This document shows, piece by piece, positions 3,918 through 30,750 of a stretch of 64,000 nt of DNA. The notes beneath the pieces were generated by a model, which did no database searches, was not told the DNA's origin, and saw only the letters and a program-made list of their open reading frames with translations. Location: NCBI GenBank assembly GCA_020073385.1, contig JAIQFH010000001.1, forward strand, positions 62,001 through 126,000, in the 5' to 3' direction. Made by a program: the position numbers and the translations under genes. Every line of letters begins with the position of its first letter. Positions within the stretch are counted from its first letter, which is position 1. The stretch is from Terriglobia bacterium (GTDB taxonomy: Bacteria; Acidobacteriota; Terriglobia; Terriglobales; Acidobacteriaceae).

Positions 3918-6131
3918 ATGGCGACTGCGAGCCCGGTGCAACCAGAAACCTTGCGTACTTTGCCCACGGATGCGGCGCGTCAGGTGCAGTGGGGATTTGC
4001 GGATCGCTTCGACTTGCAGATGCTGGTGCAGGCGACTCGGGCGGTGGCACGCGGTCCAGTGGCGCGACTGGTAGCTAATGGCGGGCGGAATTCCCATGAG
4101 TGGACCGATGGGAAGGCCTCGCTGCTGGAAGCATTCGATGAGGCGGGAATCACGGCGGTCTTCATGAATCCGGAAGAGGGCGGACTGTTCGCCGGTCCAA
4201 AAAATCTGGCACTCGCACTTGTGGCGTTCGAACTGTCGTGGGTCGACGGCGGGGCGGCCACGGCGAGTCTGGCCGGTTGCCTGGCACTGGCGCCGATACA
4301 TGAGCGCGGCACGCCCGAGCAGCAGAGCCACTACATGAAGCTTGCGGCCCCGGCGCAGCCTGGGGAGGACCGCAAGCCTTTGCGAGGAGCATTTTGTTTG
4401 ACCGAGCCGATCCCTTATGTCGGCGTTGATACGGGCATGCTCAACGGGAAAGTGAGAATCGTGGAGTGGAAGGATGGGGAAGAACCGCTGCTGCAAGTGG
4501 AGAAGCGCGGACGGTTCATCACCAACATCGGATTCGCTAATTTCGTTACAGCTGCGGTGGATTCGGACGACGAGCGAATCAAGGGCAGCTGCATGGTCAT
4601 TTTGGAAGAAGGTGATCCGGGAGTTTTCGATCGCGGAACGCCGACCAGGAAGATGGTGCACCAGCTCTCATCGACGGGAGACCCGATCTTCAACTTGCGG
4701 GTGCCTGCCACTCGGATTATCGGCGGATACGAGATCAAAGACGGCGTTCTGATTCCCCGATTCAATCACAGCGAGATTATCGAGGCGGTGTTCCGGAGAA
4801 CGAGGGTGACCGTTGGGGTGATGACCGCGGCAAAGCTTCTGTCCGCGGTGGAACCGGTCATTCGCTATCAGCGCGGAAGATTTCGCGGCGCGGAAACCGC
4901 TAGCCCGGGATCGGTACGCTATGAGCTCGGCTTGCAGGCAAGGCAGGACTCGCTCCACCGGCTTGCCGACGTCTGGGCCACGGGTGAGGCGAGTGCTTCT
5001 CTTGGCTTTGCGGCCGCCCGGGCCTTTGATGAACTGGATCCTCTTGAAAAAGAGATGGAGACACTGTACGTGGGCCGGGGAATCGTGGGGGCAAAGGCCA
5101 AGATGAAGCTCCTGCGGGAGGCAGCGGATCGAGCCGGGGCTCTCTTGCAGTTGCCAACCGGCGACGCCCGAAGGGGCGCTCTGAAGTCCGAATTGTTGCT
5201 GCGCTTTGTTGCGCTGGATTCGTTGGCTGATGTTCTATGCCCTGCGGCGAAGTTGTGGAATACCGGGTGCGGCGCACAGATGATGCGCGAGGCCGTGAGC
5301 CTGATGGGCGGTTACGGCATCACCGAAGACTGTCCGGGATTCCTTGGCAATAAATGGATGGACGCGCAACTCGAGGCGACTTACGAAGGGCCGGAGGCAG
5401 TGCAGCGCCGTCAACTCTCAGTCACGATGACGAATCCGGTGTTCGTGGCGCAGTTCCGTAGCTGGATCCGGGAGATGCGCAGCATTGCGTCGGAACATCC
5501 GGGAACGGGAGCGTGCGCTCTCGCGACAGCGATGACGATGTGGCTCTGGACGCTCGACCACTTGCAGCATAGTAAAGATGCTGACGGTGGCAAGCTGTAT
5601 CAAAGCGCGCGCCAGGGTGTGACGTTTCCGCTCGCAGACGCTCTGTGCTGGCTGCTCGCCGCTCGTTGCCAGATTCTTGACGTGCTGCGTTTGGAGAGAG
5701 AAGGCGCAGCGGATTCATCCATCGCCGAGGGTTTGTCCGGCCTCGTCAATTTCCTCAGCGATCTCTGCCACGTGCAGTCGGCGCGGGCCAGCGGCGAGGT
5801 GGCGCGCATCTGTGCGGAGTTAGTTTTCGGATATAACCGGCATCCTGCGTGGGATGAGCAAGGTACTCGCGGATGCTGGCACGAAGATGAATTGGATTCA
5901 CTCGAAGGCATCATGCCGGGAATCAATTCCTACGGGTTTGACATCATCGGCCGAGACGGTTCACACCCGAAGAAGGCCGGCCCATGCGTGACTTGCCCGG
6001 GAGAAAGTCCGTTTCTCTCGCTGCAGACCAAGCTGGCCGGCTGCCTCACAGGATCGCGGTTGGCCAAGGATCGTGCCGCCGAAGCGATTTCGAAGATCAT
6101 GATTCCTGAGGCGCTGGATTATCCGGTATGA
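3918..6131 (+). CDS. Long acyl-CoA dehydrogenase family protein
   Basis: This is a 737-residue flavoprotein of the acyl-CoA dehydrogenase superfamily, expected to oxidise an acyl-CoA thioester and pass electrons to ETF. The core shows FCLTEPIPYVGVDTG, an FAD-domain segment LMGGYGITEDCPG and YEGPEA, where the Glu stands in the usual catalytic-base region. A C-terminal extension of about 180 residues makes it longer than the 380-600 residues common in the family. I chose ATG 3918 over the upstream ATG at 3846 because a good Shine-Dalgarno (AAGGAGAGG) precedes it and the CRP/FNR palindrome lies just before 3856. It overlaps the next gene by ATGA, so it probably feeds the quinone-reducing FixCX fusion directly. 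Confidence 0.88.
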   Translation: MATASPVQPETLRTLPTDAARQVQWGFADRFDLQMLVQATRAVARGPVARLVANGGRNSHEWTDGKASLLEAFDEAGITAVFMNPEEGGLFAGPKNLALALVAFELSWVDGGAATASLAGCLALAPIHERGTPEQQSHYMKLAAPAQPGEDRKPLRGAFCLTEPIPYVGVDTGMLNGKVRIVEWKDGEEPLLQVEKRGRFITNIGFANFVTAAVDSDDERIKGSCMVILEEGDPGVFDRGTPTRKMVHQLSSTGDPIFNLRVPATRIIGGYEIKDGVLIPRFNHSEIIEAVFRRTRVTVGVMTAAKLLSAVEPVIRYQRGRFRGAETASPGSVRYELGLQARQDSLHRLADVWATGEASASLGFAAARAFDELDPLEKEMETLYVGRGIVGAKAKMKLLREAADRAGALLQLPTGDARRGALKSELLLRFVALDSLADVLCPAAKLWNTGCGAQMMREAVSLMGGYGITEDCPGFLGNKWMDAQLEATYEGPEAVQRRQLSVTMTNPVFVAQFRSWIREMRSIASEHPGTGACALATAMTMWLWTLDHLQHSKDADGGKLYQSARQGVTFPLADALCWLLAARCQILDVLRLEREGAADSSIAEGLSGLVNFLSDLCHVQSARASGEVARICAELVFGYNRHPAWDEQGTRGCWHEDELDSLEGIMPGINSYGFDIIGRDGSHPKKAGPCVTCPGESPFLSLQTKLAGCLTGSRLAKDRAAEAISKIMIPEALDYPV

Positions 6132-7978
6132 GCGCTTCCGCTCCAACTTCATCCACCGCTGTCGAGCGGCAGCAGATGTCGGTGGACATCGCGGGGGTAG
6201 GCTTCGGACCTGCGATGGGCGGATTCTTGACCACGCTCTCCCGCAAGCTTCTGAATGACGACGGCACGCCACGATTCGAAAGCGCGGTGTCCCCAGGTCT
6301 ACCTCTGCAGGTGATCTGCTACGAGCGGGCGGATGGGCTCGGTTTCGGTGTGTCGGGAGCCGTGACGCGGGCGCGCGGAATCCGTGCGAGCTTTCCAGGG
6401 ATTGATCTCTCGCAGATCCCCATGGCCGTGCCGGTGTCACGCGAGAAACTTGTTTATCTACTGGATCCGATCGGGTCCAGCCGACGCTCCCTCGTGTTTC
6501 GGGCGAAGGATCGATTGATCCGCGGGTTCGGGTCGATTGTTGGTTTGCGCGACCACGCCGTCGAACTGCCCTTTACTCCAAAGTTCATGCGTAAAGACGA
6601 CGGCATGATCTTCTCGCTCGGCCAGTTCAATCAGTGGGTGAGTGAACAAGTGACTAGCTCCGGCGCGGTTCAACTCTGGCCGGGCATGCCGGTGAGCGAA
6701 CCGCTGATTGAGCACGATGCTGTTTGCGGTCTACGCCTGATCGATCAGGGATTAAGTGTGGATGGCGCCCCTGCTGAGGGATTCATGCCCGGCATGGACG
6801 TTCGCGCTTCTCTCACAGTCGTGGCGGATGGGCCGGTAGGCGCTGTGGGACGCAAGATCGACTCGACTTTCGGACTGCCGGAGGGTCATGAGCATCGAGA
6901 GTGGGCTCTCGGCATGAAGATGGTCGTCGAGTTGCGCGAGGACTCGGGCCTCGAACCGGGAACCGTGCTGCACACGATCGGATTCCCCGAGCCGGAGATT
7001 TTCGGATTCCTTTACGTGCATCCCGAGCGATTGGCGTCGGTGGGTATCTTCATCCCGTCTTGGTTCCAAAACCCCGTTCGCACGGCGTATCGCTACCTGC
7101 AGCATTTCATGTTGCATCCCTACTTGTGGCGGCATTTGCGAGGCGGCACTTTGAGATCCTGGGGAGCGAAATCTCTGCAGGAATCTGGCCGGTATGGGGA
7201 GCCATTTCTCGCCGGAGACGGTTACGCGCGCATCGGCGAGGGCTCGGGCAGTACTAATATCCTCGCGAACTCGGGAGTGGATGAGGCGTGGACCACCGGC
7301 GTCCAACTGGCGGAAGCCGTCATTGAGCTGTTGGAAACGAAGAGGCCATTCACGCGCGAGAACCTTGAACAAACGTACGTCCGACGCCGACGCGAGAGTT
7401 GGGTCGACAAAGAGTCTAGAGCCGCTGCGGACGCCCGCAATGGCTTTCAACACGGCGTGATCGCCGGCTTGATCGGCACCGCTCTGGCGGGATTTACGGG
7501 AGGAGCGGTTGCGCTCGGGCCACGCTCTAAGGCCACGGCTGCATCTTCGTTGAAAAAGAGCTACAGCTCACGAATCGCTCCTGCCGAATTAAAGAGATTG
7601 CAGGAGGAATGCGCGGCACAGGGAATTGCCTTGCATGATCGCATCATGGACCGCTGTGGATGGCCACAGATCCCGTTCGATGGCAAGCTACTGATTTCTC
7701 ACCAGGATGTGCTGCTAATGGGTGGTAGCGTTCAGGCCCCTCCGGGGTATGCCAATCACGTAATCTTCGTTCGCCCTGAGTTATGCCGAGAGTGCGAATC
7801 GAAGTTATGCGTCGAGATGTGCTCGGGACAAGCGATCACACGCGGCGACGACGGCGTCCCTGCCTTTGACCGCGAGAAGTGTGTCTACTGCGGAGCGTGC
7901 CTGTGGAACTGCAACAGTAGGGAAGGGAATGTGGACTTCAGAGCGGGAGCCGGCGGATTGCACTCCACGCTCAACTGA
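6128..7978 (+). CDS. ETF:quinone oxidoreductase, FixC-FixX-type fusion
   Basis: This 616-residue flavoprotein is predicted to carry electrons from ETF to the quinone pool at the membrane. An N-terminal dinucleotide-binding segment (GVGFGPAMGG, an unusual form of GxGxxG) is followed by the FixC-like body and a long ETF-QO-type middle. The C-terminus is ferredoxin-like, with CRECESKLCVEMC at about residue 553 and CVYCGACLWNC at about 585. The cysteine spacing matches FixX, so FixC and FixX appear fused in one chain. It sits between the acyl-CoA dehydrogenase (4-base overlap) and etfB. Confidence 0.87.
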   Translation: MSASAPTSSTAVERQQMSVDIAGVGFGPAMGGFLTTLSRKLLNDDGTPRFESAVSPGLPLQVICYERADGLGFGVSGAVTRARGIRASFPGIDLSQIPMAVPVSREKLVYLLDPIGSSRRSLVFRAKDRLIRGFGSIVGLRDHAVELPFTPKFMRKDDGMIFSLGQFNQWVSEQVTSSGAVQLWPGMPVSEPLIEHDAVCGLRLIDQGLSVDGAPAEGFMPGMDVRASLTVVADGPVGAVGRKIDSTFGLPEGHEHREWALGMKMVVELREDSGLEPGTVLHTIGFPEPEIFGFLYVHPERLASVGIFIPSWFQNPVRTAYRYLQHFMLHPYLWRHLRGGTLRSWGAKSLQESGRYGEPFLAGDGYARIGEGSGSTNILANSGVDEAWTTGVQLAEAVIELLETKRPFTRENLEQTYVRRRRESWVDKESRAAADARNGFQHGVIAGLIGTALAGFTGGAVALGPRSKATAASSLKKSYSSRIAPAELKRLQEECAAQGIALHDRIMDRCGWPQIPFDGKLLISHQDVLLMGGSVQAPPGYANHVIFVRPELCRECESKLCVEMCSGQAITRGDDGVPAFDREKCVYCGACLWNCNSREGNVDFRAGAGGLHSTLN

Positions 7979-17046: not shown

Positions 17047-19557
17047 TTAGCCGACCCGGCGGACCAGGCGCAGGGAATTTGCCACCACCGACGCACTCGA
17101 GAGCAACATGGCAACTGCGGCCATAATAGGGTTCAGAATGCCTGCAACGGCCAGGCTGATTCCCAGACTGTTGTAGAAAAAGGCCCAGAATAGATTCTGG
17201 CGGACAACCCGCATGGTCTGAGTCGAGAGATCGAAAACATCGAGAACCTTAAGAAGAGACCCATTCATCAGCGTGACGGCAGCGGCCTTCATGGCAACGT
17301 CTGTACCTGACGCCATTGCGATGCCAAGATCCGCTTGAGCCAACGCGGGCGCGTCGTTGATCCCATCTCCGACCATTGCTACGACCGCTCCGCTTTCTTG
17401 AAGACGACGCACGACATCGGCCTTCTGGTCGGGAAGAATCTCGGATTCGAAAGAGTCAATTCCTACCGCCGAGGCAGTCCATCGCGTCGTCGCGGGAGCA
17501 TCGCCAGAGATCAGGCGAACGTCAATTCCACGCCTCTGGAGTTCGGCTACCAAAGAGACAGCCTCGGCTTTCACTTGATCCCCAAATATGGCCAAAGCAC
17601 GAAGTTCGCCGTCCCAGCCAACAAAAGAGACGGTCTTGCCCGCCGTTTCTGATTCGCGGGCTTGCTTTTCCGTGTCGGGATCAATCTGAATTCCAAGCTC
17701 CGCGATGAACCGCCGGTTTCCGGCGAAAACCGATTTCGCGGTCACGATTGCCGTGATACCGCGGCCTTTGTGTATCTCAACAGAGGTGGCATCGTGCACC
17801 GCGCATCGCCTGGCACGCGCGAGTTCGGTGACCGCCTGACTGAGCGGGTGCTCGGAATACTGTTCGACAGAAGCTAGCAGCGACAACGCGTCATCGTTTT
17901 CAATGGAATCGCCGTTAAGTGACGACCATGCCTCAACGGGACTACCATTCTGTCCTCCGGCAAGGACAACTTCGGAATGCGGTTGCTCACAGGAAACCAG
18001 ATCGATGAGGGAGAATTTTCCTTCCGTCACCGTACCGGTCTTGTCGAGGATTACGGTGTCGACTCTGCGCACGGCTTCCAGGACGCGGCTGTCTCTAACG
18101 AGGATTCCGCGGCGGCATGCTGCGCCAAAGGCAGCGGTGATGGTCAAAGGAGTTGCGAGTCCCAGAGCGCACGGGCACGCGATGACCAGAACCGTGATCC
18201 CCCGCATTATGGCCTGTCCCAGGTTTGCGGAACCCGCGAGCCAGGTAAAGAGAAACGTGAGAATCGCGATCAGTACGACGCAAGGGACGAAGACCCGTGA
18301 GACCCGATCAACGGTGCGTTCGAGGTCGCAGCGGCTACTGAGCGCCTGTTCGACCTGCTTGATAATCCGTGACAACGTTGAATCTGCCGCAGAGCGTGTG
18401 GTTTGCACGTGCAACACGCCATCCACATTGACGCTTCCGGCTGCCACCGTATCTCCTCGATGTTTCCCGATCGGAGTGGACTCGCCCGTGAGCAGCGATT
18501 CGTCCACGTGAGACTCGCCATCGGTGACCAAACCATCGGCGGGAATGTGCTCCCCGGCCTTTACTACGAAGACTTGCCCTGGCTCCAGGGCCTGAACGCT
18601 GACAAATCGCTCTTCGCCTTTCGCCAGCAACCGGGCCTTGTTCGGCATCATGCGGTGAAGGGCGGCGATCCATTGCGAGACGCGCTCTTTGGCCCCGCGC
18701 TCGATCAGTTTGCCCGCGAGAACCAGGGTGACAATTATGGTCGCAGTATCGAAATACAAATGGATCTCGCCGCGAAACGCCTGTGCAACGCTGTAACCAT
18801 AAGCCGCGAGGATGCCAATCGCGAGCAGCAATTCCATGCGAATGGCGCGATTCAACATCCCTCGCCACGCCAGTCGCAGAATTGGCTGTGCACAATAGAA
18901 GACCACCGGAGTGGCCATTGCCATCAGCACAAACGGGAGTCCTCGACGCACGCTGCCCGAGATCTGTTCGAAGTAGCCGGCATAAAGCACGAGGCTGAAA
19001 CTCATCACGTTGACCCAAAGAAATGCGGCAAGACCAGTGCGGATGAGTAGGTCGCGACGTTCTGCGTCGGCGGTTTCGGAGTCTGCCGTAAAACGTTCCG
19101 CGCGGTAACCTAGTGCCGTGATGCGCCCGATAATCCGATCCGGCGGCAAGTCCTGAGGACGGTAACGAACCTTCACCAGATCGGTGGCAAAAGACGCTTC
19201 CGCCTGCACGATGCCGGGCAACGACGTTAAAGCATGTTCGATGAGCCACGCGCATGAGGTGCACCACATGCCCTTCACATGCAGAAGCAATTCTTCACCG
19301 GGCGCCGCGCCGGCGGGAGGGTTCGTGGCTTGTTCGGAAGGCCGGTTGGAAATCAATCCTAAGCGGAGACTGCGGCGAAACAATTCCGTTTCGCGAATAT
19401 CCTGACCGCCCTGGATAGCGCCACTCTCCCAAAGGATGAGATAGACATTCATGCACCCCAGGCAGCAGAAGAAGCGCTCTGCTTCGCCGACGTGTTGCTG
19501 CACCGGATATTTGCCGCATCCGAGGCCGCACAGGTCGCATTCTCGGGTTGTTGCCAT
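17047..19557 (-). CDS. ccoI: Copper-translocating P-type ATPase, CcoI/FixI type
   Basis: This 836-residue inner-membrane P1B ATPase is needed in known systems to supply copper to cbb3 oxidase. It begins with a Cys-rich metal-binding segment (ECDLCGLGCGKY then FFCCLGC), then an HMA domain (GMWCTSCAWLIEHAL). The ATPase core has the CPC motif (VIACPCALGLATPL), the phosphorylation site DKTGTVTEGKF, the EHPLSQA motif and GDGINDAPALAQADLGIA. I chose the start at 19557, not the upstream ATG at 19602, because the preceding small gene stops one base before it (TGA-G-ATG). It is the last gene of the respiratory operon. Confidence 0.92.
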   Translation of the reverse strand: MATTRECDLCGLGCGKYPVQQHVGEAERFFCCLGCMNVYLILWESGAIQGGQDIRETELFRRSLRLGLISNRPSEQATNPPAGAAPGEELLLHVKGMWCTSCAWLIEHALTSLPGIVQAEASFATDLVKVRYRPQDLPPDRIIGRITALGYRAERFTADSETADAERRDLLIRTGLAAFLWVNVMSFSLVLYAGYFEQISGSVRRGLPFVLMAMATPVVFYCAQPILRLAWRGMLNRAIRMELLLAIGILAAYGYSVAQAFRGEIHLYFDTATIIVTLVLAGKLIERGAKERVSQWIAALHRMMPNKARLLAKGEERFVSVQALEPGQVFVVKAGEHIPADGLVTDGESHVDESLLTGESTPIGKHRGDTVAAGSVNVDGVLHVQTTRSAADSTLSRIIKQVEQALSSRCDLERTVDRVSRVFVPCVVLIAILTFLFTWLAGSANLGQAIMRGITVLVIACPCALGLATPLTITAAFGAACRRGILVRDSRVLEAVRRVDTVILDKTGTVTEGKFSLIDLVSCEQPHSEVVLAGGQNGSPVEAWSSLNGDSIENDDALSLLASVEQYSEHPLSQAVTELARARRCAVHDATSVEIHKGRGITAIVTAKSVFAGNRRFIAELGIQIDPDTEKQARESETAGKTVSFVGWDGELRALAIFGDQVKAEAVSLVAELQRRGIDVRLISGDAPATTRWTASAVGIDSFESEILPDQKADVVRRLQESGAVVAMVGDGINDAPALAQADLGIAMASGTDVAMKAAAVTLMNGSLLKVLDVFDLSTQTMRVVRQNLFWAFFYNSLGISLAVAGILNPIMAAVAMLLSSASVVANSLRLVRRVG

Positions 19558-19558
19558 C

Positions 19559-19771
19559 TCAGTGGTGCAAACTTTCAGAGCTCTGTGTGACCGGTTTCCC
19601 ATTCGGGTCGAGAAGCACCGGGTTCGCCTGCCTGGTGACGACGTAACAGAAGATTAGGATTCCGATGAAGAGCACGAACACGAGTCCAAGCACGTAGACC
19701 AGCGGCGAGCCCTGTTTGGGTGTCTTGCCGGCGGCCGGAGAGGAAGAGTTCCATTCTGTAAGCGCGCTCAT
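19559..19771 (-). CDS. Small single-span membrane protein of the oxidase operon
   Basis: A 70-residue peptide with one membrane helix (LVYVLGLVFVLFIGILIFCY), a short cytoplasmic N-terminus and a polar C-terminus ending SSESLHH. GGAGG lies 12 bases upstream. It is placed between ccoG and ccoI with almost no spacing to ccoI. Position suggests a role in oxidase assembly, as with other small Cco proteins, but no homologous motif was recognised. Confidence 0.65.
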   Translation of the reverse strand: MSALTEWNSSSPAAGKTPKQGSPLVYVLGLVFVLFIGILIFCYVVTRQANPVLLDPNGKPVTQSSESLHH

Positions 19772-19821: not shown

Positions 19822-21174
19822 TCAACGCGAGTCGGTGCTCGGCGTGATGAAGGTTTCCTCGAATACGTCGCTCTCGTTGCCGACTCGACTGATCAAGCGA
19901 AAGTAATTCACGCCGGGCGCAACTCCTGCCGAGGGAGCAGCCTGAATTTCAAATTCCGTTTGAAGCGTCTGGCCACCCGATACGACCACCGCATTTTCGA
20001 AATTCATGAAAGTCGCGCCCGCCAATCCTTCGATCGATAATTGGACGATAGCCTGCTCGCGCCCGCGATTGGCGACCTGCAATCGAAAGCGGTTGTAGAC
20101 TGTTCCGTCTTTGCCCAGCCGATACATGGTGGTCCGATCAGGCGCAATACGGACCAGAACCGCGCGTCGCATCGAGAGTGCTGTGAACAGGCCGGCACCG
20201 TAAAACAGAATGACCAACAGAACGACTACCCGTTTGGCATTGCGCAAACCAATGCGCTGGTACCAGGACTTGTCGCCCGTCCCCAGTTTTTCGCCTTGCT
20301 CGCCCCAGACATAGTGAATCAATCCCTGCTTGCCGAGGCGGCTGAGCACGTCGACGCAAGCATCGATACACTCGCCGCAGTGTATGCATTCGATCTGGTA
20401 CGGCGAGGTTCGAATGTCGATGCCCATGTGGCAAACCCGGACACACTTCTTGCACTCGATGCATTCGCGATCCTCATCACGGTAATGGACAATGAGCGTG
20501 TCGCCATCGCCGAGCATGCCCTGCAAATAACCGTAGGGACACACGGTGGTACAAAAGCGCTGCCGTAAAAACAGAAAGTCGAGCAAGGTTAGCAGGGTGG
20601 TGGTGGCGCCTGCGATGCCGCCGGCGGTCTTGATATCGAATCTCAGCAGGCGGTGAATCAAATCCCGGGGCTCGACGAAATATGAGATGAAGGCAAACGC
20701 CAGAACGACCGACGCCATGACTGCGATCAGATAAAACAGCGTTCGGCTCAGCAATGTCCTTCGCTTTGCGTTCCAGCGCACGTACTTGTTTACGGTCCGC
20801 GTCAACTTGCTCTCGAGCGTAATCGAGGCCTCACTGAAGATCATCTGCGGGCACAGATAACCGCAGTACACGCGCCCGTAGAGCATTGCCATGGCGGCGA
20901 CGATGAACATCAGGAACATGAGCGAGAAGAAAATGATGGAGAATTCGCTGATCCAGAGTTCGTAGCCAAAGAAGTAAAAGCGCTGCCGCGGTATGTCGAA
21001 GCGCATCAAGTTCAAGAAGGGAAGTGCGAAGAAGATGGCGACGCAAATCAGGTGGATGAGCTTGCGAAAACGATGGAACGAGAACGACTGCGGCGGTTTG
21101 CGGTCGCACACCGGCAGCGGCTTCGTAGAAACCGTGATGTTCGGATTCCCCGGCTTGGCTTCAGTGGTGGGCAT
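19822..21174 (-). CDS. ccoG: Cytochrome c oxidase accessory protein CcoG (FixG/RdxA)
   Basis: This 450-residue polytopic ferredoxin-like protein is thought to help copper handling or redox steps in cbb3 assembly. Visible features are the membrane segments with RVYCGYLCPQMIFSEA, the RQRFCTTVCPYGYLQGML cysteine motif, and two [4Fe-4S] sites, CIECKKCVRVCHMGIDI and CIHCGECIDACVDVL. The C-terminal beta-sandwich (about residues 330-450) matches the FixG family. It overlaps the TauE/SafE-like gene by 14 bases. Confidence 0.92.
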   Translation of the reverse strand: MPTTEAKPGNPNITVSTKPLPVCDRKPPQSFSFHRFRKLIHLICVAIFFALPFLNLMRFDIPRQRFYFFGYELWISEFSIIFFSLMFLMFIVAAMAMLYGRVYCGYLCPQMIFSEASITLESKLTRTVNKYVRWNAKRRTLLSRTLFYLIAVMASVVLAFAFISYFVEPRDLIHRLLRFDIKTAGGIAGATTTLLTLLDFLFLRQRFCTTVCPYGYLQGMLGDGDTLIVHYRDEDRECIECKKCVRVCHMGIDIRTSPYQIECIHCGECIDACVDVLSRLGKQGLIHYVWGEQGEKLGTGDKSWYQRIGLRNAKRVVVLLVILFYGAGLFTALSMRRAVLVRIAPDRTTMYRLGKDGTVYNRFRLQVANRGREQAIVQLSIEGLAGATFMNFENAVVVSGGQTLQTEFEIQAAPSAGVAPGVNYFRLISRVGNESDVFEETFITPSTDSR

Positions 21175-21889
21175 GCATGTGGTGCTCCATCATTTGCATT
21201 CCAGGCATGGTGCCGCGCCACACGAGCAGGACTCCCATGAGCATTATGCCGATGGCTGCCAGTTGGCTGCCCCATCGGTTCAGCCTCATCCGGAGCGCCG
21301 ACGAAAAGATACCGAGCGCTAAGAGAGCTCCAGCCGTGCCTAATCCGAAAGCGAACATCGTTGCGGCGCCGCCGACCGGAGAACCAGTCGCCATGGCTTT
21401 CAGCAGCGCGGCATAAATCAGTCCGCAGGGAAGGAGTCCGAGGGTCAGGCCCAGAAGAAAGCGATTCACGGCCGCGCGGCCTGAGAGCAACCGCCCAGCT
21501 TTTCGAAGCAGAGACGACGGAATTCGAATGAGCCCGCTTCCTGCGAGGCGTGACGGGATCACGCCGAGCATGACGATCCCCACCAGGATCATCGATGTCC
21601 CGGTAATCAGTGCAAGAGCATGGCTGAACCCGGTGAGATGAGCGATCAACCCCATGGTTTGACCCGCCACTCCGGCCAGCGCGCCCAGTGCAGAGTAGGT
21701 GATGATGCGTCCGGCATTGTAGGCAAGGTGATTGTGCAATAGAGAAGAGATAGAGGACGTTTGAGAGTCGGTCTTTAGCGATTCCAGGCTGACGCTGTAG
21801 GAGAGGACGATAGGGCCGCACATCTGCACGCAGTGGAGGCTGCCGACCAGCCCCAACATCAACATGACCCCAAACTCCACTGAGGTCAC
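21161..21889 (-). CDS. Sulfite exporter TauE/SafE-like (DsbD-type) membrane protein with His-rich tail
   Basis: This is a 242-residue protein with about six membrane helices and the conserved opening GLVGSLHCVQMCGPIV. Related proteins occur in cbb3 gene clusters and are linked to copper delivery or thiol redox work. The C-terminus is Met/His-rich (MPGMQMMEHHMHAHH), a plausible copper-binding tail. It starts inside the end of the flavoprotein gene (ATGA) and its own end overlaps ccoG, so the three are translated together. Sulfite export itself is not supported by context. Confidence 0.8.
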   Translation of the reverse strand: MTSVEFGVMLMLGLVGSLHCVQMCGPIVLSYSVSLESLKTDSQTSSISSLLHNHLAYNAGRIITYSALGALAGVAGQTMGLIAHLTGFSHALALITGTSMILVGIVMLGVIPSRLAGSGLIRIPSSLLRKAGRLLSGRAAVNRFLLGLTLGLLPCGLIYAALLKAMATGSPVGGAATMFAFGLGTAGALLALGIFSSALRMRLNRWGSQLAAIGIMLMGVLLVWRGTMPGMQMMEHHMHAHH

Positions 21890-23850
21890 GGCATCACCTG
21901 TCGTGTGGTCTCAGTCACCGTCCCGTGGTACTGGATCTTGGAGTTGGGCGTCGGAACAGTCACGCACTCCCAGTAGAACTCGAACTTTTTCATGGTCACG
22001 GCATGCGTCGGGCAGCGTGAGGCGCAAAGCCCGCAGCGAATGCACGACGTTTCGTCTTTCAGCATGACGCCGCCGAGAGCGTCGAGTTCCCGCGGATCCA
22101 TCGAGCGGAGTTCCTCTCGGCTGATTCCGAGAGTGCCGGTGACCATATCATGCCATTTCTCGTCCTGACAAAGCTGGCTGAGACCCACAAGGCGAATGAG
22201 GTTTTTCGGGCAAACGTCGACGCAGCCGTTGCAGGCGATGCAGGTCGAAGTATCGAAAACAGTGTTGATGTTGCAACGCAGGCAGCGCGACGCCTGGCGG
22301 TGGGCCTCTTCAGCCGAGAAATCTTCTTCGATAATTTCCAGTGAAGCCGAACGCTTGCTGGCGTCGAGCACTGGCGGGGTAGCGCGCGGCAGGCGTTCCC
22401 ACCCTTCAGCCATGGTGTAGACCGCGGGAGCCCAGTGGCTGCGAACAACAATGTCGGTGCGAGTGCCGCGTAAGAAGTCATGCATCGAGCGCGCTGCGAT
22501 CTGAGCTGAGGCAATGGCGTCGATGAATAGACGCGGACCGTGCGCAATGTCGCCACAGGCGAAGACATCGGGAGCCGTGGTCTGGTAGGTTTCGCGGTTG
22601 ACCTTGATGAGTCCGCGGTCGCTCTCGACGCCGTCTTCCGGTTTCAAGAACGAGAGGTCGGACGTCTGCCCGATGGCGTAGATGACGGTATCGACGGGGA
22701 TGTCTTCCACATCGGTTTCATCGAAGCTGGGATTGAACCGGCCCGTAGTGTCGAATACCGAAGTGCAGCGGATCGTGCGCAAGGCCGTCACCGTTCCGTT
22801 ATTCCCGAAGACTGCCTTGGGGCCGCGCGAACTGTGTAGTTTTATCCCTTCTTCTTCACCCTCGATGATCTCGACCTCGTCGGCGGGCATCTCCTCCCGC
22901 GATTCAAGACAGACGACGTGTACTTCTTTGTCGCCGCTGAGGCGCAGAGCCGAACGGGCCACGTCGTAGGCTACCTGCTCTCCGCGTTCCATGTCGGCCA
23001 TGGCTTCGCTGCGCGTTGTTTCTCCGGCAGGACGCACCGCTGAGCGCGCGACATCGTAAGCGACGTTCCCACCTCCGATCACAACGACTCGACGGCCGAG
23101 CGGTAGAGGGTTGCCTTCGTTGAAGGCCCGCAGGAAGTCCATGCCGTCGTACACCATTTCACGGTCGGACCCGGGCAGTGGCAGCGTGCGCCCCTTCGGA
23201 AGCCCGATGCCCAGGAAGATCGCCTTGTACCCTTGCCGGCGAAGATCGGCGATGGTGAAATCGCGACCGAGGCGCATGTTGCATTTCAGTTCGACCCCCA
23301 GCGCGAGTATGGCTTGAATCTCCTGCTTAACCAATTCACGGGGAAGACGAAAGACCGGAACACCGACCGTGAGCATTCCGCCCGGTTCCGAGTATGCTTC
23401 GAAAACGGTGACCTTGTAGCCAATCTGTGTCAGATCGTGCGCGACCGTTAAGCCAGAGACGCCGGCTCCAACGACTGCGATCTTCTCGTAATCGCCGCGA
23501 TTGGAAGGAAGCATGCGCTGGTCGCAGCCGGCGCGATGAGGAGCGAAGTCTCCCGACTCAGGACCGAGTTGCGTGGTCACGTAGCGTTTGAGAGAGCGAA
23601 TGGAAACCGGCGCGTCCACATCGCCGCGGCGGCAGTTGATTTCGCATGGAGCCCCGCACACCCGGCCGCAAATCGAAGCGAAAGGATTCGTAGCCCTGGC
23701 AATGCTGTACGCCTCTTCGTAATGTCCTTCACCGATGGCGGTCACATACCCGCACGCGTTGGTGTGCACCGGGCAGGCGTGCTGGCACTTCACCATCTTG
23801 ATCCAGTAGTCCGCCCCTTCAATCGCTTCGAATTGTGCCCATTCGCTCAT
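21886..23850 (-). CDS. FAD-dependent Fe-S oxidoreductase, GltD-like, with ferredoxin domains
   Basis: This 654-residue soluble protein resembles the small subunit of glutamate synthase and related NAD(P)H oxidoreductases. The N-terminus has an Fe-S domain (CQHACPVHTNACGY, then CGRVCGAPCEINC), followed by FAD site VVGAGVSGLTVAHDL and a nucleotide site VVVIGGGNVAYDVARSA. The C-terminus has cysteine-rich ferredoxin motifs (CIACNGCVDVCPKNLI, CIRCGLCASRCPTHAV). The stretch VAYDVARSAVR recurs 30 residues later as VAYDVARSALR. Lying in the middle of a bc/cbb3 operon, it may bring NAD(P)H or ferredoxin electrons to the chain. There is no partner GltB here, so glutamate synthesis is unlikely. Confidence 0.85.
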   Translation of the reverse strand: MSEWAQFEAIEGADYWIKMVKCQHACPVHTNACGYVTAIGEGHYEEAYSIARATNPFASICGRVCGAPCEINCRRGDVDAPVSIRSLKRYVTTQLGPESGDFAPHRAGCDQRMLPSNRGDYEKIAVVGAGVSGLTVAHDLTQIGYKVTVFEAYSEPGGMLTVGVPVFRLPRELVKQEIQAILALGVELKCNMRLGRDFTIADLRRQGYKAIFLGIGLPKGRTLPLPGSDREMVYDGMDFLRAFNEGNPLPLGRRVVVIGGGNVAYDVARSAVRPAGETTRSEAMADMERGEQVAYDVARSALRLSGDKEVHVVCLESREEMPADEVEIIEGEEEGIKLHSSRGPKAVFGNNGTVTALRTIRCTSVFDTTGRFNPSFDETDVEDIPVDTVIYAIGQTSDLSFLKPEDGVESDRGLIKVNRETYQTTAPDVFACGDIAHGPRLFIDAIASAQIAARSMHDFLRGTRTDIVVRSHWAPAVYTMAEGWERLPRATPPVLDASKRSASLEIIEEDFSAEEAHRQASRCLRCNINTVFDTSTCIACNGCVDVCPKNLIRLVGLSQLCQDEKWHDMVTGTLGISREELRSMDPRELDALGGVMLKDETSCIRCGLCASRCPTHAVTMKKFEFYWECVTVPTPNSKIQYHGTVTETTRQVMP

Positions 23851-23856
23851 CGATTG

Positions 23857-24180
23857 CTATTCATCCTTGTGGACGGCCTTGAATGCGAATGCGATCACGA
23901 TGATCGCGTACACAACCACCATCGCAATGACGGTGTACATGAAGCCTGGGGAGGACTGTGTCGCCTGATTGAACTGGCGGACCAACGCACCGCGATCGGA
24001 GTGATTTACTTCGCCGAACATATATAGGAAGAAATACCCGATCACACATGCCATGATCACGATGTAGGCGAACTTCAGAAATGTCGGGACGCCCGTGCCC
24101 TTGCGCTCGCTGATCCAGCCGTCGGCGTATTCGTGGATGTCGTTCTCAGATTGCTTTTCCGGAGCCGTTACTGTTGGCAT
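23857..24180 (-). CDS. CcoP N-terminal-like membrane protein without hemes
   Basis: This 107-residue protein has two membrane helices (FLKFAYIVIMACVIGYFFLY and MYTVIAMVVVYAIIVIAFAF). Its N-terminal part (NDIHEYADGWISERKGTGVP) resembles the cytoplasmic start and first helix of CcoP, but there is no CxxCH anywhere. The usual di-heme C-terminal half of CcoP is therefore absent from this gene. It probably anchors the oxidase, with heme work done by the heptaheme cytochrome upstream. It overlaps the preceding small gene by 13 bases. Confidence 0.68.
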   Translation of the reverse strand: MPTVTAPEKQSENDIHEYADGWISERKGTGVPTFLKFAYIVIMACVIGYFFLYMFGEVNHSDRGALVRQFNQATQSSPGFMYTVIAMVVVYAIIVIAFAFKAVHKDE

Positions 24181-24383
24181 TGTGATTCGCCTCCACTGTT
24201 CTTGACATCACGGTCGCCTAGCTCATCGAGGCCGTCGTGAAGCATCTGGTACTTCGGATCTTCGCTTTGGCTTCCCCAGTACCCGTCTTTGCGGGAGCGG
24301 ATCAGAAAGAAAATCGCTCCCGCGACAAATAGAAAGAACATCAGGTACGCGAGAAAAATGCTCGGATAAACGTAGTCGTGCAC
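24168..24383 (-). CDS. Small CcoS/CcoQ-like membrane protein
   Basis: A 71-residue protein with one N-terminal membrane helix (FLAYLMFFLFVAGAIFFLI) followed by SRKDGYWGSQSEDPKYQML. The layout (helix, then aromatic-acidic tail with D-P-K-Y) recalls the CcoS/FixS assembly peptides or CcoQ. It lies directly after ccoO and overlaps the CcoP-like gene. A second, better CcoS-like peptide is encoded at 30037-30246. Confidence 0.6.
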   Translation of the reverse strand: MHDYVYPSIFLAYLMFFLFVAGAIFFLIRSRKDGYWGSQSEDPKYQMLHDGLDELGDRDVKNSGGESQCQQ

Positions 24384-24392
24384 GTCGCGTCC

Positions 24393-24962
24393 TCACTTCT
24401 CGTAATCGTGATCCGGGCGCCAATCCTTGGCCCGGCCCAGCGTCTGAATGTAGGCGACGAGCGCGTTGAAGTCGTCGTCGTTGTTGGCGATCCACGGGAA
24501 TGGAGGCATGACCGAACCTGGAACCAGGTCGCGCGGATTTCGGAAGTGCGTCCGGTGCCACTGCCGGTCATACTTGCCGCCGACACGGGAGAGATCCGGC
24601 CCGGTGCGCTTGGTTCCGAACATGTGCGGACTGTCGTAGACGAACTCGTCAGGCGTGGAGACTGGTGAGTCTACGCCTTTCCAGCCGGATCGCTTGGTAT
24701 CGGCAAGTAAGGTGCGGGTCTGTTGCGTGTGACAATACCAACAACCCTCGCGCACATAAATCGCGCGCCCCTTCAGTTCGACGTCCGTGTATGGACGCAA
24801 CTTGCCCGTCGGCCCCTTCGAGGGATCAGTGTTCTCGAACGGCTTGGACCAACTCTTGTCGACCAGTGGTGGTACGACGGTTGTCAGCAGACCTCCGATG
24901 AAGAAGAACACCAGTGCAGCGATTACGAACCCGATAGCGCTTTTGTCAGTCTTCTGTAGCAT
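24393..24962 (-). CDS. ccoO: cbb3-type cytochrome c oxidase subunit II (CcoO/FixO)
   Basis: This 189-residue membrane-anchored mono-heme cytochrome has an N-terminal helix (residues 8-30) and the heme motif CWYCH at residues 74-78, in the CcoO-typical context REGCWYCHTQQ. GPDLSRVGGKY, HFRNPRDLVPGSVMPPFPW (with the likely axial Met) and a C-terminal helix DFNALVAYIQTLG follow. It donates electrons to the CcoN heme b centre. It lies 10 bases after ccoN. Confidence 0.93.
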   Translation of the reverse strand: MLQKTDKSAIGFVIAALVFFFIGGLLTTVVPPLVDKSWSKPFENTDPSKGPTGKLRPYTDVELKGRAIYVREGCWYCHTQQTRTLLADTKRSGWKGVDSPVSTPDEFVYDSPHMFGTKRTGPDLSRVGGKYDRQWHRTHFRNPRDLVPGSVMPPFPWIANNDDDFNALVAYIQTLGRAKDWRPDHDYEK

Positions 24963-24972
24963 GGCATTCTCC

Positions 24973-26381
<1,409 letters not shown>

Positions 26382-26400
<19 letters not shown>

Positions 26401-28235
26401 AACACCTCCTGTTTCACCTGGGACGTGAGCGTCGGGGCCTTCTCACTGGGAGGTGAAACCTTTTGCGGATTCATACTGCGAACGAAATTGATGAGATCGC
26501 CGACGTCGTTCTGCGTGAGTCCGTAATCGATCCATGACGGCATCGCCGTTCCCTGAACGCCATAAAGGATGGAATCGAAGAAGCGCTTGTCCGGTACGCT
26601 GTTGACGAAAAACGAATTGCGCAGATTGCGTGGACGCGGGCTGATATCGAGCGAGTTCGGCCCTTTGCCGTCGGCTTTGCGGCCGTGACAGCCCGTGCAC
26701 CGCTGCAGAAATATCTGTTCACCGCGATGGACCGAATCTCCGCTGAAAGCGACCGGATTCTGTTCGGGAACCCTGTGCGCCTTCAATTCGGGCCTCGGTT
26801 CCTTGACGAATGTCTGGAAAACGAACGTGAGCACTGCCCTCCGTTGTTCCTCGGTCAGCACGCGTTCCCACGGAGGCATAGACGTTCCCGAGACACCGGT
26901 TTTCAACGCCTGCGAGAAGCGGTCTTCGGGCTTGCTGTTCATGAAGGCAACTTTCGCAAGATCGCGCGGCGCAGGATCGAGATAGAGATACGTCACGCCC
27001 TTGCCGTCGCCTTTTTCACCGTGGCAGCGGGCGCACAGATTCTTGTAGATCTCCTCTCCTGTCTTGAATGAGGCAGGGGTACTGCGGGTCTTCAGGTACG
27101 ACGAGATCGAATGGAAATCCGCCTCGGCGAAGCCGAATACCGGCATGATCGAATCTGGAATTCTCGACTTCGGCTCGCGGAAGTGCGCCATCATCCAGTC
27201 TTCATCGCGAATCAATCCCTCGTACGAGAGATCTGGCGCAATGTGCCCGTCGCGGTCGCCGAGCTTGTGGCACGCTGTGCAGGAGCGCTCTGAGATGAGC
27301 TGTTCTCCACGAACTGCGGAAGGTGTACTGCTCTGCGTCTTCGATGTCTCTTCCGCCTTGGTGTGCTGCAGCCGTGCGCGATATTGTCCAAGCGAGGTCT
27401 CTGCGAAGTTGATGCCGCGCCGGCTCTTCAGGAATACGGTCAGGGCCTTGATCTCATCGTCAGTGAGATCGAACTTAGGCATGAAGGATGTCGGCTGGAA
27501 GGAGCGAGGATTTACCGTGTGCTCCCAGAGATAGTTGACCTTGAATTTCTTTCCAACTTCGCTGAGATCCGGTCCAAGCGTGCCATTCGACAAGCCCTCG
27601 ATGCGATGACAGCCATAGCATGCCTTCTCGAAGAAGAGCTGTCGCCCGCGTTGCACCAACGGAGCTCCCGCAAAGTTGTCTTCCGTGTGGCATTGGGCGC
27701 AGTTCGCTTGCATGTACTCTTTGCCGGTCAGCTTTGCCTTGAACTCGGCATGCCAGTTCGCCTGCGTCACATAACCCAGCATCGGATCCGGCCAGAAAGC
27801 GTCTTCGCCGTGGGCGTAGAAGGTCTCGAGTCCGCGGCCTTGTCCGTCGTGGCAAATCGTGCAGCCGAAGTCGGTGAACTTGTGGCGGCGCTCCCAATGC
27901 CCATTGCGCTCGACATCCCCCAAAGCGGCAGAATAGGGATGCGTGCGCAGCGGATCGGCATGTCCCTGGAAGCGGGGATCATCGCTCGCGATGTGACACG
28001 TGGCGCAGCGGTCTACGCGGGATTCCCCGAATTGCGTGACGATGATCTGCTCAATGCGTGGCCCGCGTTCGTCGAGAGCATGCTTCTCCGCATCAGTTTT
28101 CGCCAGGCTGCGGGCCTGCTCGAAGTACGCTGTCTGATGCTTCTCCCACCGGTTGAAGAACTGATCGTAGAAGACAATCCCATGCACGATCAGCACCACG
28201 AAACTTACCACTGCCAGTGTTACACGCGTGCTCAC
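26382..28235 (-). CDS. Membrane-anchored heptaheme cytochrome c
   Basis: This 617-residue protein has one N-terminal helix (residues 5-24) and seven CxxCH sites, starting at residues 77, 125, 179, 206, 319, 401 and 513. The first three look like a compact multiheme unit. The last four each sit in a class I cytochrome-like domain with a later Met (for example [26 protein letters not shown]). It lies between cytochrome b and ccoN, where cytochrome c1 or a c-type carrier would be expected, so it probably wires the bc module to the oxidase. The start is GTG after GAGGAGA. The last 19 bases overlap ccoN. Confidence 0.85.
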
Positions 28236-28254: not shown

Positions 28255-29583
28255 TCACCAAGGCGAAACGAACTCCCAGTTCGGCCCTCGGAAGAATGTG
28301 CCGACGATGATGAGAATGACGTTGACGATCACGAACGTCAGGAACAGGAAATTGGCCAGCAGACGTTCCTGAGCGAACCAGCGGCCGACGCCGACGATCT
28401 TGCGATCGATGTAGGGGACGATTAAAAGCAAAAGCACCTCGATCGTAGGGATGCCAACTCCTCCCCAGAAAGCGGAGTAGCTGACCTGCTCCTGCAACCC
28501 GAGGAAGTACCACGGAGCCTTTGCCGGGTTCGGGGGATGCATCACATTGACTGGTTCTTCCAGCGGGGCGTTAAACAGGAGCGAGACCAGCAGGACTCCT
28601 GCGACGGTAATGAGGAAGACCACCAGTTCGGCCATGAACAGGTTCGGCCAGGCAAAGACCGAACGGTCAGGAACGTTGCCAACCTTGGTAAACGGACCGC
28701 GCACCAACCCTTGAATTCCGTATTGCCGCTTCTGCAAGACGGGCTGGGCGGCCGCCGCCGCAGCGGCGGAGGTGGCCATAACAACGGCCGGGCCTGAAAT
28801 GACTTCCACTGGAGCGGGAGCATCGGCAGGCAACGCATCTTCCTCTGCAGGGCGCGACAGGCCGCCGTCTTTCCGGATTCTCCAGAAATGAATTGCCACC
28901 AGCAGCGAAAGTACGGCAGGCAACACTGCCACATGCAGCACGTAGAAGCGCAGTAAAGCCTCCTGTCCGACAGTGGAATCTCCGAGCAGGATGAATTTCA
29001 CGTCCTTGCCGACCAGCGGCGCATAGCTTGCGATCGAAGTGCCCACCGTGATCGCCCAGAATGCAAGCTGATCCCAGGGCAGCAGATAGCCGGTGAAGCT
29101 CATGAACAGAGTCACAAGCAGCAACAGCATGCCCAGAACCCAATTGAATTCCCGCGGTGGCTTGTAAGACCCGGTCAGAAACACACGGCACATGTGCAGA
29201 AAAACGGCCGCTACCATCCCATGCGCTGCCCAGCGATGCATGTTCCGCAGGAAAATTCCGAACGCCACCGTCCCGCGTAAATCGAGCATTCGGTCATACG
29301 CCTGCGTGGTCGAGGGCACGTAATAAAACATCAGCAGGATCCCAGTCACCACCAGAATGAAGAACAAGAAGAACGAGATCAGTCCAAGCCCCAGCGTGAA
29401 CGTTGCTTTCAAGCTATTCCGGTGAACCTTGACCGGGTGCAGGTGTAAGAAGAAATTCGTGAAGCTGGTCGAGGCCCGTCCCAGATCCGAAGAGGGAAGC
29501 GGGTTGCGAAAGATCGAGCGCCAGATGTTCTCCGGCAACGCGACCAGCGTCTTCCAGGGAGAGGTTGTCGTTTGGTTGCTCAT
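28255..29583 (-). CDS. petB: Cytochrome b of a bc-type quinol oxidase complex
   Basis: This 442-residue cytochrome b has the N- and C-terminal halves in one chain. The N-terminal helices carry heme-ligand histidines in [20 protein letters not shown] and [20 protein letters not shown]. The second half has the quinol-site region [14 protein letters not shown], a variant of the PEWY motif. An Ala-rich linker at about residue 265 joins the halves. It overlaps the Rieske gene by ATGA. It would oxidise quinol and pass one electron to the Rieske protein. Confidence 0.9.
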
Positions 29584-30065
29584 ACGCGCAAATAGTTCCC
29601 CGCTTCGATTTCGGTGTCTTTGTCGACCTCGATTTCGCCATTAGGCGCGAGGCTGACCTGGAACCACGGAAGGGCTCGAGGCGCTGGTCCTCCAGTAACG
29701 TTGCCGTCCTGGTCGTACCGCGATCCGTGGCATGGGCAGGAGAAGCCAGTCTCGGAGACCGAGATAATGCAGCCCAGATGGGTGCACGTGGTCGAGATGG
29801 CAGCGACCTTGTCACCGTCGCGCACAATACAGACCCGGCGTGTGTCGAGCGAAACGCGCGCGCCGGGCGGGAAGTCCTCCGGCTTACCGATCGAGAAGCG
29901 ATTGGGCTGTCCGTAGGTGGCGCGCGGCTTTATGAAAATGAGGTTGGAGAGCGCTGTAATAATGAGCGAGCCGAACAGGCCGAAGCCACTGAGCCACGAC
30001 AAGACTCGACGCCGCGTCATCGCGTCGCCGCTTTCCTCAAGCGCGGGTTTGACTGGAGTCTTCAT
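29580..30065 (-). CDS. petA: Rieske 2Fe-2S protein
   Basis: This 161-residue Rieske protein has a twin-arginine-like membrane anchor ([16 protein letters not shown]) and the two cluster boxes CTHLGC (residues 94-99) and CPCHGS (residues 110-115), complete with the ligand Cys/His pairs and the disulfide cysteines. It accepts electrons from quinol at cytochrome b and passes them to a c-type cytochrome, here probably the heptaheme protein. A GGAGAA Shine-Dalgarno lies just upstream. Its first 29 bases overlap the CcoS-like gene. Confidence 0.93.
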
Positions 30066-30246
30066 TCTTTTTCTCCTGTGGCGGAGACTCGACCAATTCC
30101 TCCACGTCCGACCAGAACACCTGGTATTTTGCGTCTTCCAGGTCCCGGAAATAGTTCCTCTTCACGGCGAACACAAACACGAGCACCGCTCCAATTCCCA
30201 TGAAGAGGCTTGCGGCGATCGTGATCCACGTCAGTTCCATTGCCAT
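30037..30246 (-). CDS. CcoS/FixS-like oxidase assembly peptide
   Basis: This 69-residue peptide has one helix ([20 protein letters not shown]) followed by [19 protein letters not shown], very close in layout to the CcoS pattern (helix, then W-A-x-x-x-G-Q-F-D-D-L-E). In known cbb3 systems CcoS is needed to insert cofactors into CcoN. Its place before the Rieske gene, far from ccoN, is unusual. It lies 12 bases after the Rrf2 regulator. Confidence 0.75.
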
Positions 30247-30258
30247 CCCAAGCGAGAC

Positions 30259-30750
30259 TCAATTTGTCCGGCCCCGTTTCTTCTTGAGTTTCTTAGGAAC
30301 GCCGGAAATCCAAACCGTCTTTTCGTGCAGTTCGTAACTCATTCCTTTTGCTCGAGCCGCCAGGCTAGCCATTGAGGCCGCTCCAAGAACATTGGTAATT
30401 GCCGCTTGCGCCTCGGCCCACACTTGATGTGCCGGGCACCAGGATTTGCGGTCGCACGAGGGGCCTTCCTCAATACATTGGTTCAGGCGCACCGGCCCTT
30501 CCATAGCCTCCAGCACATCCAGCAGAGAGATACCTGCGGCCGAGGCAGCAAGAGCATATCCACCGCCTGCACCCCTCTGGGACCGGATCAGACGGGCACG
30601 CACGAGTTGCTGTAGAACTTTCGACAAGAAATGCCCTGAAACCTCGGTCGCTTTCGATAGTTCCGACTGGCGAACCGTGGAGCTTGGCGGCAAACTCGCC
30701 AGATGGATCATGACCCGTACGGCATAGTCCGAAGCGCGGGTAATCTGCAT
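30259..30750 (-). CDS. Rrf2-family transcription regulator with a three-Cys cluster
   Basis: This 163-residue regulator has the family start MQITRASDYAVRVMIHLA, a winged helix (VSGHFLSKVLQQLVRARLIR, then QRGAGGGYALA) and cysteines at 92, 99 and 105 in LNQCIEEGPSCDRKSWC. The three-Cys layout is that of Fe-S sensing members such as NsrR and IscR, so it may sense NO, oxygen or Fe-S status. It is the first gene of the bc/cbb3 operon and probably controls it. A palindrome just upstream may be its own operator. Confidence 0.88.
   Translation of the reverse strand: MQITRASDYAVRVMIHLASLPPSSTVRQSELSKATEVSGHFLSKVLQQLVRARLIRSQRGAGGGYALAASAAGISLLDVLEAMEGPVRLNQCIEEGPSCDRKSWCPAHQVWAEAQAAITNVLGAASMASLAARAKGMSYELHEKTVWISGVPKKLKKKRGRTN

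Follow-up and report, generated by a model that had tools for sequence, protein, structure and literature searches.

How does a cbb3-type oxidase receive its electrons when the genes around it encode neither the cytochrome c1 of a quinol-oxidizing complex nor the diheme subunit CcoP? The question is raised by the window (the whole stretch of DNA analyzed here, 64,000 nucleotides), in which a gene for a c-type cytochrome with seven CxxCH sites lies between the genes of a Rieske/cytochrome b unit and those of the oxidase subunits CcoN and CcoO. Our reading, which we consider probable, is that this heptaheme protein replaces the function of both cytochrome c1 and CcoP and wires Rieske/cytochrome b to CcoNO within one composite module. 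The genes lie on the minus strand in the following order:

30259-30750, minus strand: Rrf2-family regulator (profile match; in part of the loci only)
30037-30258, minus strand: FixS/CcoS, cbb3 maturation protein (PF03597, 25.4 bits; cut-off, 23.1)
29580-30065, minus strand: Rieske iron-sulfur protein, CTHLGC...CPCHGSRYD (profile match)
28255-29583, minus strand: cytochrome b, b6-like, 442 amino acids (aa) (heme His 116, 130, 217, and 232; invariant His47)
26382-28235, minus strand: heptaheme c-type cytochrome, 617 aa (ORF with GTG start)
24973-26400, minus strand: CcoN, C-family heme-copper oxidase (His73, 212, 262, 263, 350, and 352 and Tyr256 kept)
24393-24962, minus strand: CcoO with one CxxCH (profile match)
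24168-24383, minus strand: small conserved protein, 71 aa, one hydrophobic segment (conservation)
23857-24180, minus strand: two-TM protein, 107 aa, no heme site (weakly like the CcoP N terminus)
21886-23850, minus strand: GltD/NfnB-like FAD-NAD(P) oxidoreductase, 654 aa (motifs; Cys residues for a putative four 4Fe-4S clusters)
21161-21889, minus strand: DsbD_2 membrane protein, probable cytochrome/cbb3 biogenesis (in 24/37 testable loci)
19822-21174, minus strand: CcoG-like assembly protein (TIGR02745, 249.4 bits, under the cut-off of 316.7; FixG_C over cut-off)
17047-19602, minus strand: copper-translocating P-type ATPase, CcoI-like by position (TIGR01511, 500.5 bits; cut-off, 397)

From 30258 down to 19822 the gaps between genes range from -26 to +19 bases; the heptaheme gene shares 19 bases with ccoN and is separated from the cytochrome b gene by another 19, and a 219-base gap separates the end of the CcoG gene from the copper ATPase gene. 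A first-pass annotation of this DNA did not include the genes for FixS/CcoS, the 71-aa protein, or the GltD/NfnB-like protein, which carries FAD and NAD(P) motifs. Because FixS, a cbb3 maturation protein, is encoded ahead of the Rieske protein, the genes of the two complexes are interleaved, which goes beyond mere adjacency. The quinol-side unit consists of a 2Fe-2S Rieske protein and a cytochrome b with four heme His residues. On the oxidase side, the listed CcoN residues, which we take to be the CuB and heme b/b3 ligands and the active-site Tyr, align with those of solved CcoN and are 98 to 100% conserved in 46 sequences, placing the protein in the C family. This CcoN scored 327.7 against TIGR00780, under the cut-off of 583.15. 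The 71-aa protein had no Pfam match.

A scan of genome contigs found 38 loci, all in records with Acidobacteriota-type titles; because such a scan reaches close relatives only, we do not take the operon to be confined to the phylum. A phylum search found eight full-length copies besides that of the window, with one locus common to the two sets. With four partial or frame-broken copies (L090, L093, L094, and L095) excluded, the complete copies make up 43 rows, 42 of them distinct because L046 and L076 are one locus; the 46 loci likewise become 45. Seventeen further copies from a larger phylum search bring the complete set to 60 rows and 54 distinct copies, all 54 of which have seven CxxCH sites. 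The ORFs of G005, G051, G063, and G230 are 589 to 606 aa long with seven sites each despite in-frame stops in the matches, which must therefore fall where the matches end on the C-terminal side. The window itself matches Sulfotelmatobacter records at 85 to 86%.

The neighborhood is equally constant. Operon order and strand are kept in 45/46 loci, the exception being a cross-hit in an incomplete contig. CcoO was seen in 44/46 loci (the matches in L074 and L094 were read as cross-hits within the heptaheme gene), and Rieske, cytochrome b, CcoN, and CcoO genes fall within one 8.7- to 11-kb stretch in all 17 further loci. The smaller genes accompany them: FixS in 40/40 testable and 16/17 further loci, the 71-aa gene in 42/42 and 15/17, and the 107-aa gene in 16/17 further loci. 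The GltD-like gene is present in 40/41 testable loci (the miss, L091, was read as a contig ending early) and 16/17 further loci. Across 33 loci, distances between heptaheme proteins track those of CcoN (r = 0.89), cytochrome b (r = 0.91), and the GltD-like protein (r = 0.92), although any genes inherited together would be expected to correlate in this way. At the level of gene content and sequence, these comparisons show that the Rieske/cytochrome b unit, the heptaheme protein, CcoNO, and the FAD/4Fe-4S oxidoreductase are encoded and inherited together.

The first-pass annotation had stated that no cytochrome c1 gene and no diheme CcoP are present, and a genome-wide search for a complete copy of either elsewhere agrees with it: nothing scored over cut-off with PF02167, TIGR00782, or FixP_N. 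The cytochrome c1 profile PF02167 had no matches in the 8.23-Mb genome; the CcoP profile TIGR00782 had 21, none over cut-off and two of them within the heptaheme protein; and FixP_N (PF14715) had none in this genome. The heptaheme protein itself scored 21.4 bits against PF02167 (cut-off, 22.8), over residues 497 to 518 only, around the CxxCH of heme 7, and by these family tests it is neither a cytochrome c1 nor a CcoP. The gene at 23857-24180 had been called CcoP-like but without a heme site. Its lack of a heme site stands, and its likeness to CcoP is weak: the 107-aa protein matches FixP_N at an E value of 0.4, 2/17 members match, and an hhalign profile comparison gave P = 0.015 with a probability of 2.9%. 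Heme domains and a possible CcoP N terminus sit in separate proteins in the window operon, and the 107-aa protein may be a remnant of CcoP.

The pairing of the heptaheme protein with its oxidase is exact among 396 phylum genomes, which were assigned to Acidobacteriota on the strength of the Sulfotelmatobacter match and of six searched copies that agree completely with named records over 400 residues. The heptaheme protein is full length in 26 of these genomes and split in one (G062), and CcoN is found in 81. CcoN scores >700 bits in 26 genomes, and these coincide one for one with the 26 that have the full-length heptaheme protein; CcoN of the split genome scores 582, and all other genomes score <=363. 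By identity, too, the window CcoN belongs to a distinct type, with 70 to 85% to its own type, 59% to that of G062, and 32 to 41% to other CcoN proteins of the phylum. FixP_N occurs in 32/396 genomes, all with CcoN: 0/26 of those with the full-length heptaheme protein versus 32/55 of the other CcoN genomes (Fisher P = 6e-8, a value that ignores kinship and is indicative only). Because FixP_N is also absent from 23 of these 55, a missing CcoP is by itself not special. As an aside, the FixP_N-bearing ORFs of ten other phylum genomes (L098 to L107) have one CxxCH each, which suggests that canonical CcoP in Acidobacteriota may often be monoheme.

Re-reading of the 617-aa ORF placed the CxxCH sites at residues 77, 125, 179, 206, 319, 401, and 513, exactly as first annotated, and the single N-terminal anchor of the earlier description was likewise found, as a hydrophobic stretch. 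In 5,000 composition shuffles of the protein, CxxCH occurred 0.016 times on average and once at most. The chain divides into the following parts:

28161-28223, minus strand: N-terminal hydrophobic anchor, about residues 5 to 25 (sequence; long helix 2 to 43 in the model)
27678-28007, minus strand: compact heme sites 77, 125, and 179 with His 99, 118, and 142 (alignment)
27411-27656, minus strand: heme 4 class-I domain, Met 252 (Pfam Cytochrom_C best at 194 to 271; alignment)
27075-27329, minus strand: heme 5 class-I domain with FixO/CcoO-like motif, Met 364 (FixO 332 to 378; fold; alignment)
26448-27083, minus strand: heme 6-7 class-I domain pair, Met 453 and 565 (model; fold; split gene in G062)

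All seven CxxCH motifs are invariant in 29 aligned heptaheme sequences, the other 28 of which are 57 to 85% identical to the window copy. Outside the motifs, His 99, 118, and 142 and Met 252, 364, 453, and 565 are invariant in 60/60 rows, as is His351 in domain 5. Three invariant His and four invariant Met residues suggest three bis-His and four His/Met hemes; hemes 1 to 3 are likely bis-His, with His 99, 118, and 142 as distal ligands, and hemes 4 to 7 likely His/Met. The FixO profile PF02433 matches two stretches of the protein, and domains 4 and 5 have the CcoO/FixO-like motif. A C-terminal CQGCK (residue 613) was considered as an eighth heme site; it is confined to the window copy among 43 and is therefore unlikely to bind heme.

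The whole-chain AlphaFold model has a mean pLDDT of 63.9, with <50 in the heme 1-2 region and about 60 at heme 3, and the low values at hemes 1 to 3 make it useless for heme-heme distances. The heme 6-7 pair is modeled with a pLDDT of 86.5. Its best fold match is 6h5l_B (Z, 16.8; rmsd, 3.5 A; 192 aligned residues), the diheme chain (Kustc0457) of the Kuenenia Kustc0457/0458 complex. Against CcoP (3mk7_C) the pair gave a Z of 10.7 and an rmsd of 2.5 A over 89 aligned residues, level with unrelated class-I cytochromes, and CcoP was not among the best 50 fold matches of the whole heptaheme model. With hemes 6 and 7 nearest the Kuenenia diheme chain, "CcoP-like" is used here for the probable role of this region and makes no claim about its descent.

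The split genome suggests how the long chain may have been put together. G062 (L049) encodes a 379-aa pentaheme protein, 38% identical to heptaheme residues 4 to 383, and a separate 269-aa diheme protein with a signal-peptide-like start, 33% identical to residues 385 to 586; both genes adjoin those of CcoN and CcoO. The split point falls between hemes 5 and 6, from which we infer that the heptaheme protein is modular. No other observation speaks as clearly for an origin of the long chain by fusion, with one part from complex III and the other from the oxidase side. A second CcoN is encoded in G062 with a FixP_N match next to it, and only a shorter, one-TM counterpart of the 107-aa protein was seen there.

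The N-terminal part also has relatives in operons of the phylum that contain no oxidase: beside genes for an FAD/Fe-S protein, Rieske, and cytochrome b, these encode a multiheme protein that aligns at its N-terminal end with heptaheme residues ~7 to 270. The source genome itself has two such operons, with six heme sites on contig C51 and eight on contig C16. The first (L053, 7849-18435) encodes an FAD/Fe-S protein, a Rieske protein, cytochrome b, and a hexaheme c, followed by a molybdopterin oxidoreductase, an Fe-S protein, an ethylbenzene-dehydrogenase-type subunit, and a nitrate-reductase-delta chaperone, so that its Rieske/cytochrome b unit apparently serves a molybdenum enzyme. Near it, at 4493-6133, is a gene for an NnrS-like protein of 547 aa, the source of a weak COX1 match. 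The second (L054, 6328-15255) has a third Rieske/cytochrome b unit with an octaheme protein and a cytochrome b matched in two pieces, flanked by one or more proteins with a plastocyanin-type domain and by a CxxCH protein. We read all of these operons as forms of one quinol-oxidizing unit in which the multiheme subunit has been fitted to one terminal enzyme or another, in the window operon a cbb3 oxidase. Multiple Rieske/cytochrome b complexes have reportedly been described by ten Brink et al.

A multiheme protein in place of cytochrome c1 is already known from anammox Rieske/cytochrome b complexes, according to the passages of PMC12954380 that describe them. The Kuenenia stuttgartiensis complexes Kustd1480-1485 and Kuste4569-4574 resemble the window module in having a b6-like cytochrome b, a multiheme c replacing c1/f, a putative NAD(P) oxidoreductase with four Fe-S clusters, a Ser-tuned Rieske protein, and menaquinone; they differ in their hexa- or octaheme c and in having no oxidase in the unit as described there (PMC12954380). 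Compared with Kuenenia as known by this description, the window likewise has an FAD/NAD(P) protein with Cys residues for four clusters beside Rieske/cytochrome b and a multiheme c. However, Kuenenia has a separate subunit IV, whereas one 442-aa cytochrome b spans both parts in the window, and Kuenenia has heme cN, whereas the sole Cys of the window cytochrome b is Cys132, beside the heme ligand His130 (PMC12954380, in its account of these subunits). Lacking both of these features, the window module is not filed as a Kuenenia-type member. Multiheme acceptors for Rieske/cytochrome b units are also discussed for Caldithrix in part of PMC5317091.

Other known systems share the joining of complexes III and IV. 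The engineered c1-CcoP and c1-CcoP-cy fusions of Rhodobacter capsulatus bc1-cbb3 also join the c1 and CcoP roles in one polypeptide; as outlined in PMC7876108, these were made in the laboratory from canonical subunits, with fewer hemes (three or four by our count) and the anchors of both, whereas the heptaheme protein is natural, with seven heme sites and one anchor. In the actinobacterial bcc-aa3 supercomplex, which uses menaquinol, the multiheme c of complex III (QcrC) similarly reaches complex IV directly, but QcrC has two hemes and the oxidase is A-type, as summarized in PMC8361435; the fold likeness of QcrC to hemes 6 and 7 is loose (rmsd, 8 to 11 A over the pair). Canonical cbb3 CcoNO(Q)P shares the CcoN and CcoO cofactor residues, FixS, CcoG, and the copper ATPase with the window module but has a CcoP, which the module lacks. 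Within the same phylum, bc1-caa3 and ACIII-caa3 superoperons likewise unite the genes of complexes III and IV but contain caa3 oxidases; PMC8407424, which describes them, gives the contents of cbb3 operons as no more than CcoN, CcoO, and a single unknown cco gene.

The first-pass proposal that a fused wire replaces c1 and CcoP is partly supported. Co-occurrence, operon order, and the split relative favor it; the fold comparison does not establish homology of hemes 6 and 7 to CcoP, the absence of CcoP alone is not special, and the use of a multiheme protein instead of c1 is already known. In the reading we prefer, menaquinol would be oxidized at cytochrome b, and the high-potential electron would pass from the Rieske protein through the heptaheme protein to CcoO, CcoN, and O2. 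The N-terminal part, with three likely bis-His hemes and heme 4, would fill the place of c1, in keeping with its being the portion common to the oxidase-free Rieske/cytochrome b operons, and hemes 5 to 7 would bridge to the oxidase, standing in for the missing CcoP hemes and free cytochrome c. Menaquinone is the likely quinone because MqnC of the futalosine pathway scored over cut-off in the genome and neither menD nor ubiA did. The constancy of sites, candidate ligands, and gene order (54/54, 60/60, and 45/46), the match between the 26 genomes and one CcoN type with FixP_N in none, the absence of c1 and CcoP over cut-off, the split in G062, and the kept oxidase active-site residues all argue for this wire, yet an operon and co-occurrence show partnership, neither a physical complex nor an order of electron transfer. 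Bis-His hemes are usually of low potential, and three of them fit poorly into a route on which electrons run straight downhill from Rieske to oxidase; the fold relationship of hemes 6 and 7 to Kuenenia instead of CcoP also counts against it. On the other side, a laboratory c1-CcoP fusion gave active bc1-cbb3 supercomplexes, as reported in PMC7876108. Class-I cytochrome-like matches elsewhere in the genome could be shuttles, and they are equally what a looser partnership would need, in which the heptaheme protein is the c subunit of Rieske/cytochrome b only and a soluble cytochrome c feeds CcoNO. Hexa- and octaheme proteins in oxidase-free operons fit that arrangement, as does the description of CcoNO alone as a minimal functional core (PMC8407424, in its treatment of cbb3), but the exact co-occurrence with one CcoN type, the 0/26 for FixP_N, and the order FixS-Rieske-cytochrome b-heptaheme-CcoN make it rather unlikely. 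Less likely by far is that the heptaheme protein is an entry port through which outside electrons, from Fe(II) or other donors, reach the oxidase, with Rieske/cytochrome b running in reverse to reduce quinone and NAD(P). The compact bis-His-type hemes, the relatedness of cytochrome b to ExtP/ExtQ from selenite/tellurite operons, and the molybdopterin enzyme next to a sister operon of the same genome (L053) would suit it; the genes of the window operon include none resembling an outer-membrane conduit or donor enzyme, however, and the anchor puts the heptaheme protein at the inner membrane.

One further reading extends the heptaheme wire and does not exclude it. The low-potential electron could leave the b hemes for the GltD/NfnB-like protein, on the cytoplasmic side, and there reduce NAD(P)+, with the pull of O2 driving NAD(P)H formation; we regard this as possible but tentative. 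In the two Kuenenia complexes, the b6-like cytochrome b and multiheme c are accompanied by the putative oxidoreductase for NAD(P) and its four Fe-S clusters; PMC12954380, where it treats them, endorses an earlier proposal that electrons are bifurcated to NAD(P)H and gives measured Rieske potentials of >+300 mV. The GltD-like gene of the window operon is nearly universal among the loci, 17 Cys residues are 100% conserved in the 38/38 operon copies compared, and its best PDB relatives are 9bov/9bp5, the latter reported to be structurally homologous to the NAD(P) subunit of Kuenenia (PMC12954380). The same account links a Rieske Ser to high potential, names a Tyr as second tuning residue, and notes that Kustd1480 also has Phe (PMC12954380). 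The Ser is kept in 43/43 operon copies, which together with a menaquinone-making genome favors bifurcation; cytochrome b His47, also kept in 43/43, may match, by position only, a Kuenenia His proposed in PMC12954380 to bind an extra heme. Against this, the second residue is Tyr in 14 copies and Phe in 29 of the 43, and the Ser is not peculiar to the operon, as it is also found in all seven split or oxidase-free copies looked at. The mechanism is still a proposal even for Kuenenia, and the GltD-like protein could instead feed electrons from NAD(P)H in. A slightly bolder and correspondingly more doubtful combination would make the module a single natural respirasome, in which menaquinol is bifurcated, the seven-heme wire leads to cbb3, and the FAD/4Fe-4S protein leads to NAD(P)H, all driven by O2. 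If true, it would exhibit the kind of favorable partner half-reaction that, according to PMC12954380, nobody has yet proposed for Kustd1480-1485.

In the open-licence literature, searched by titles and the starts of abstracts, no paper on this operon or its biochemistry was found. A natural fusion doing what engineering did in Rhodobacter would offer a defined, testable path of electrons from complex III to complex IV, and should the NAD(P) subunit act in the way suggested for anammox bacteria, the module would use bifurcation, driven by oxygen, to supply NAD(P)H. Acidobacteriota are called abundant soil bacteria in PMC8407424, which, in the sections concerned, reports that cbb3 expression went undetected in two strains when O2 was under 10 umol per litre and calls for work on when cbb3 is used. 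Oxygen-driven NAD(P)H formation would be testable in a named isolate, Occallatibacter savannae AB23, in which the operon is present.

Two smaller features of the operon are recorded here. The window copy of the GltD-like protein has a near-repeat, VAYDVARSA(V/L)R, occurring twice a few dozen residues apart in the NAD(P)-binding region, and the G062 homologue has only the first of these motifs. The window Rrf2 regulator has three Cys residues, QCIEEGPSCDRKSWC, reminiscent of the Fe-S-binding IscR/NsrR types.
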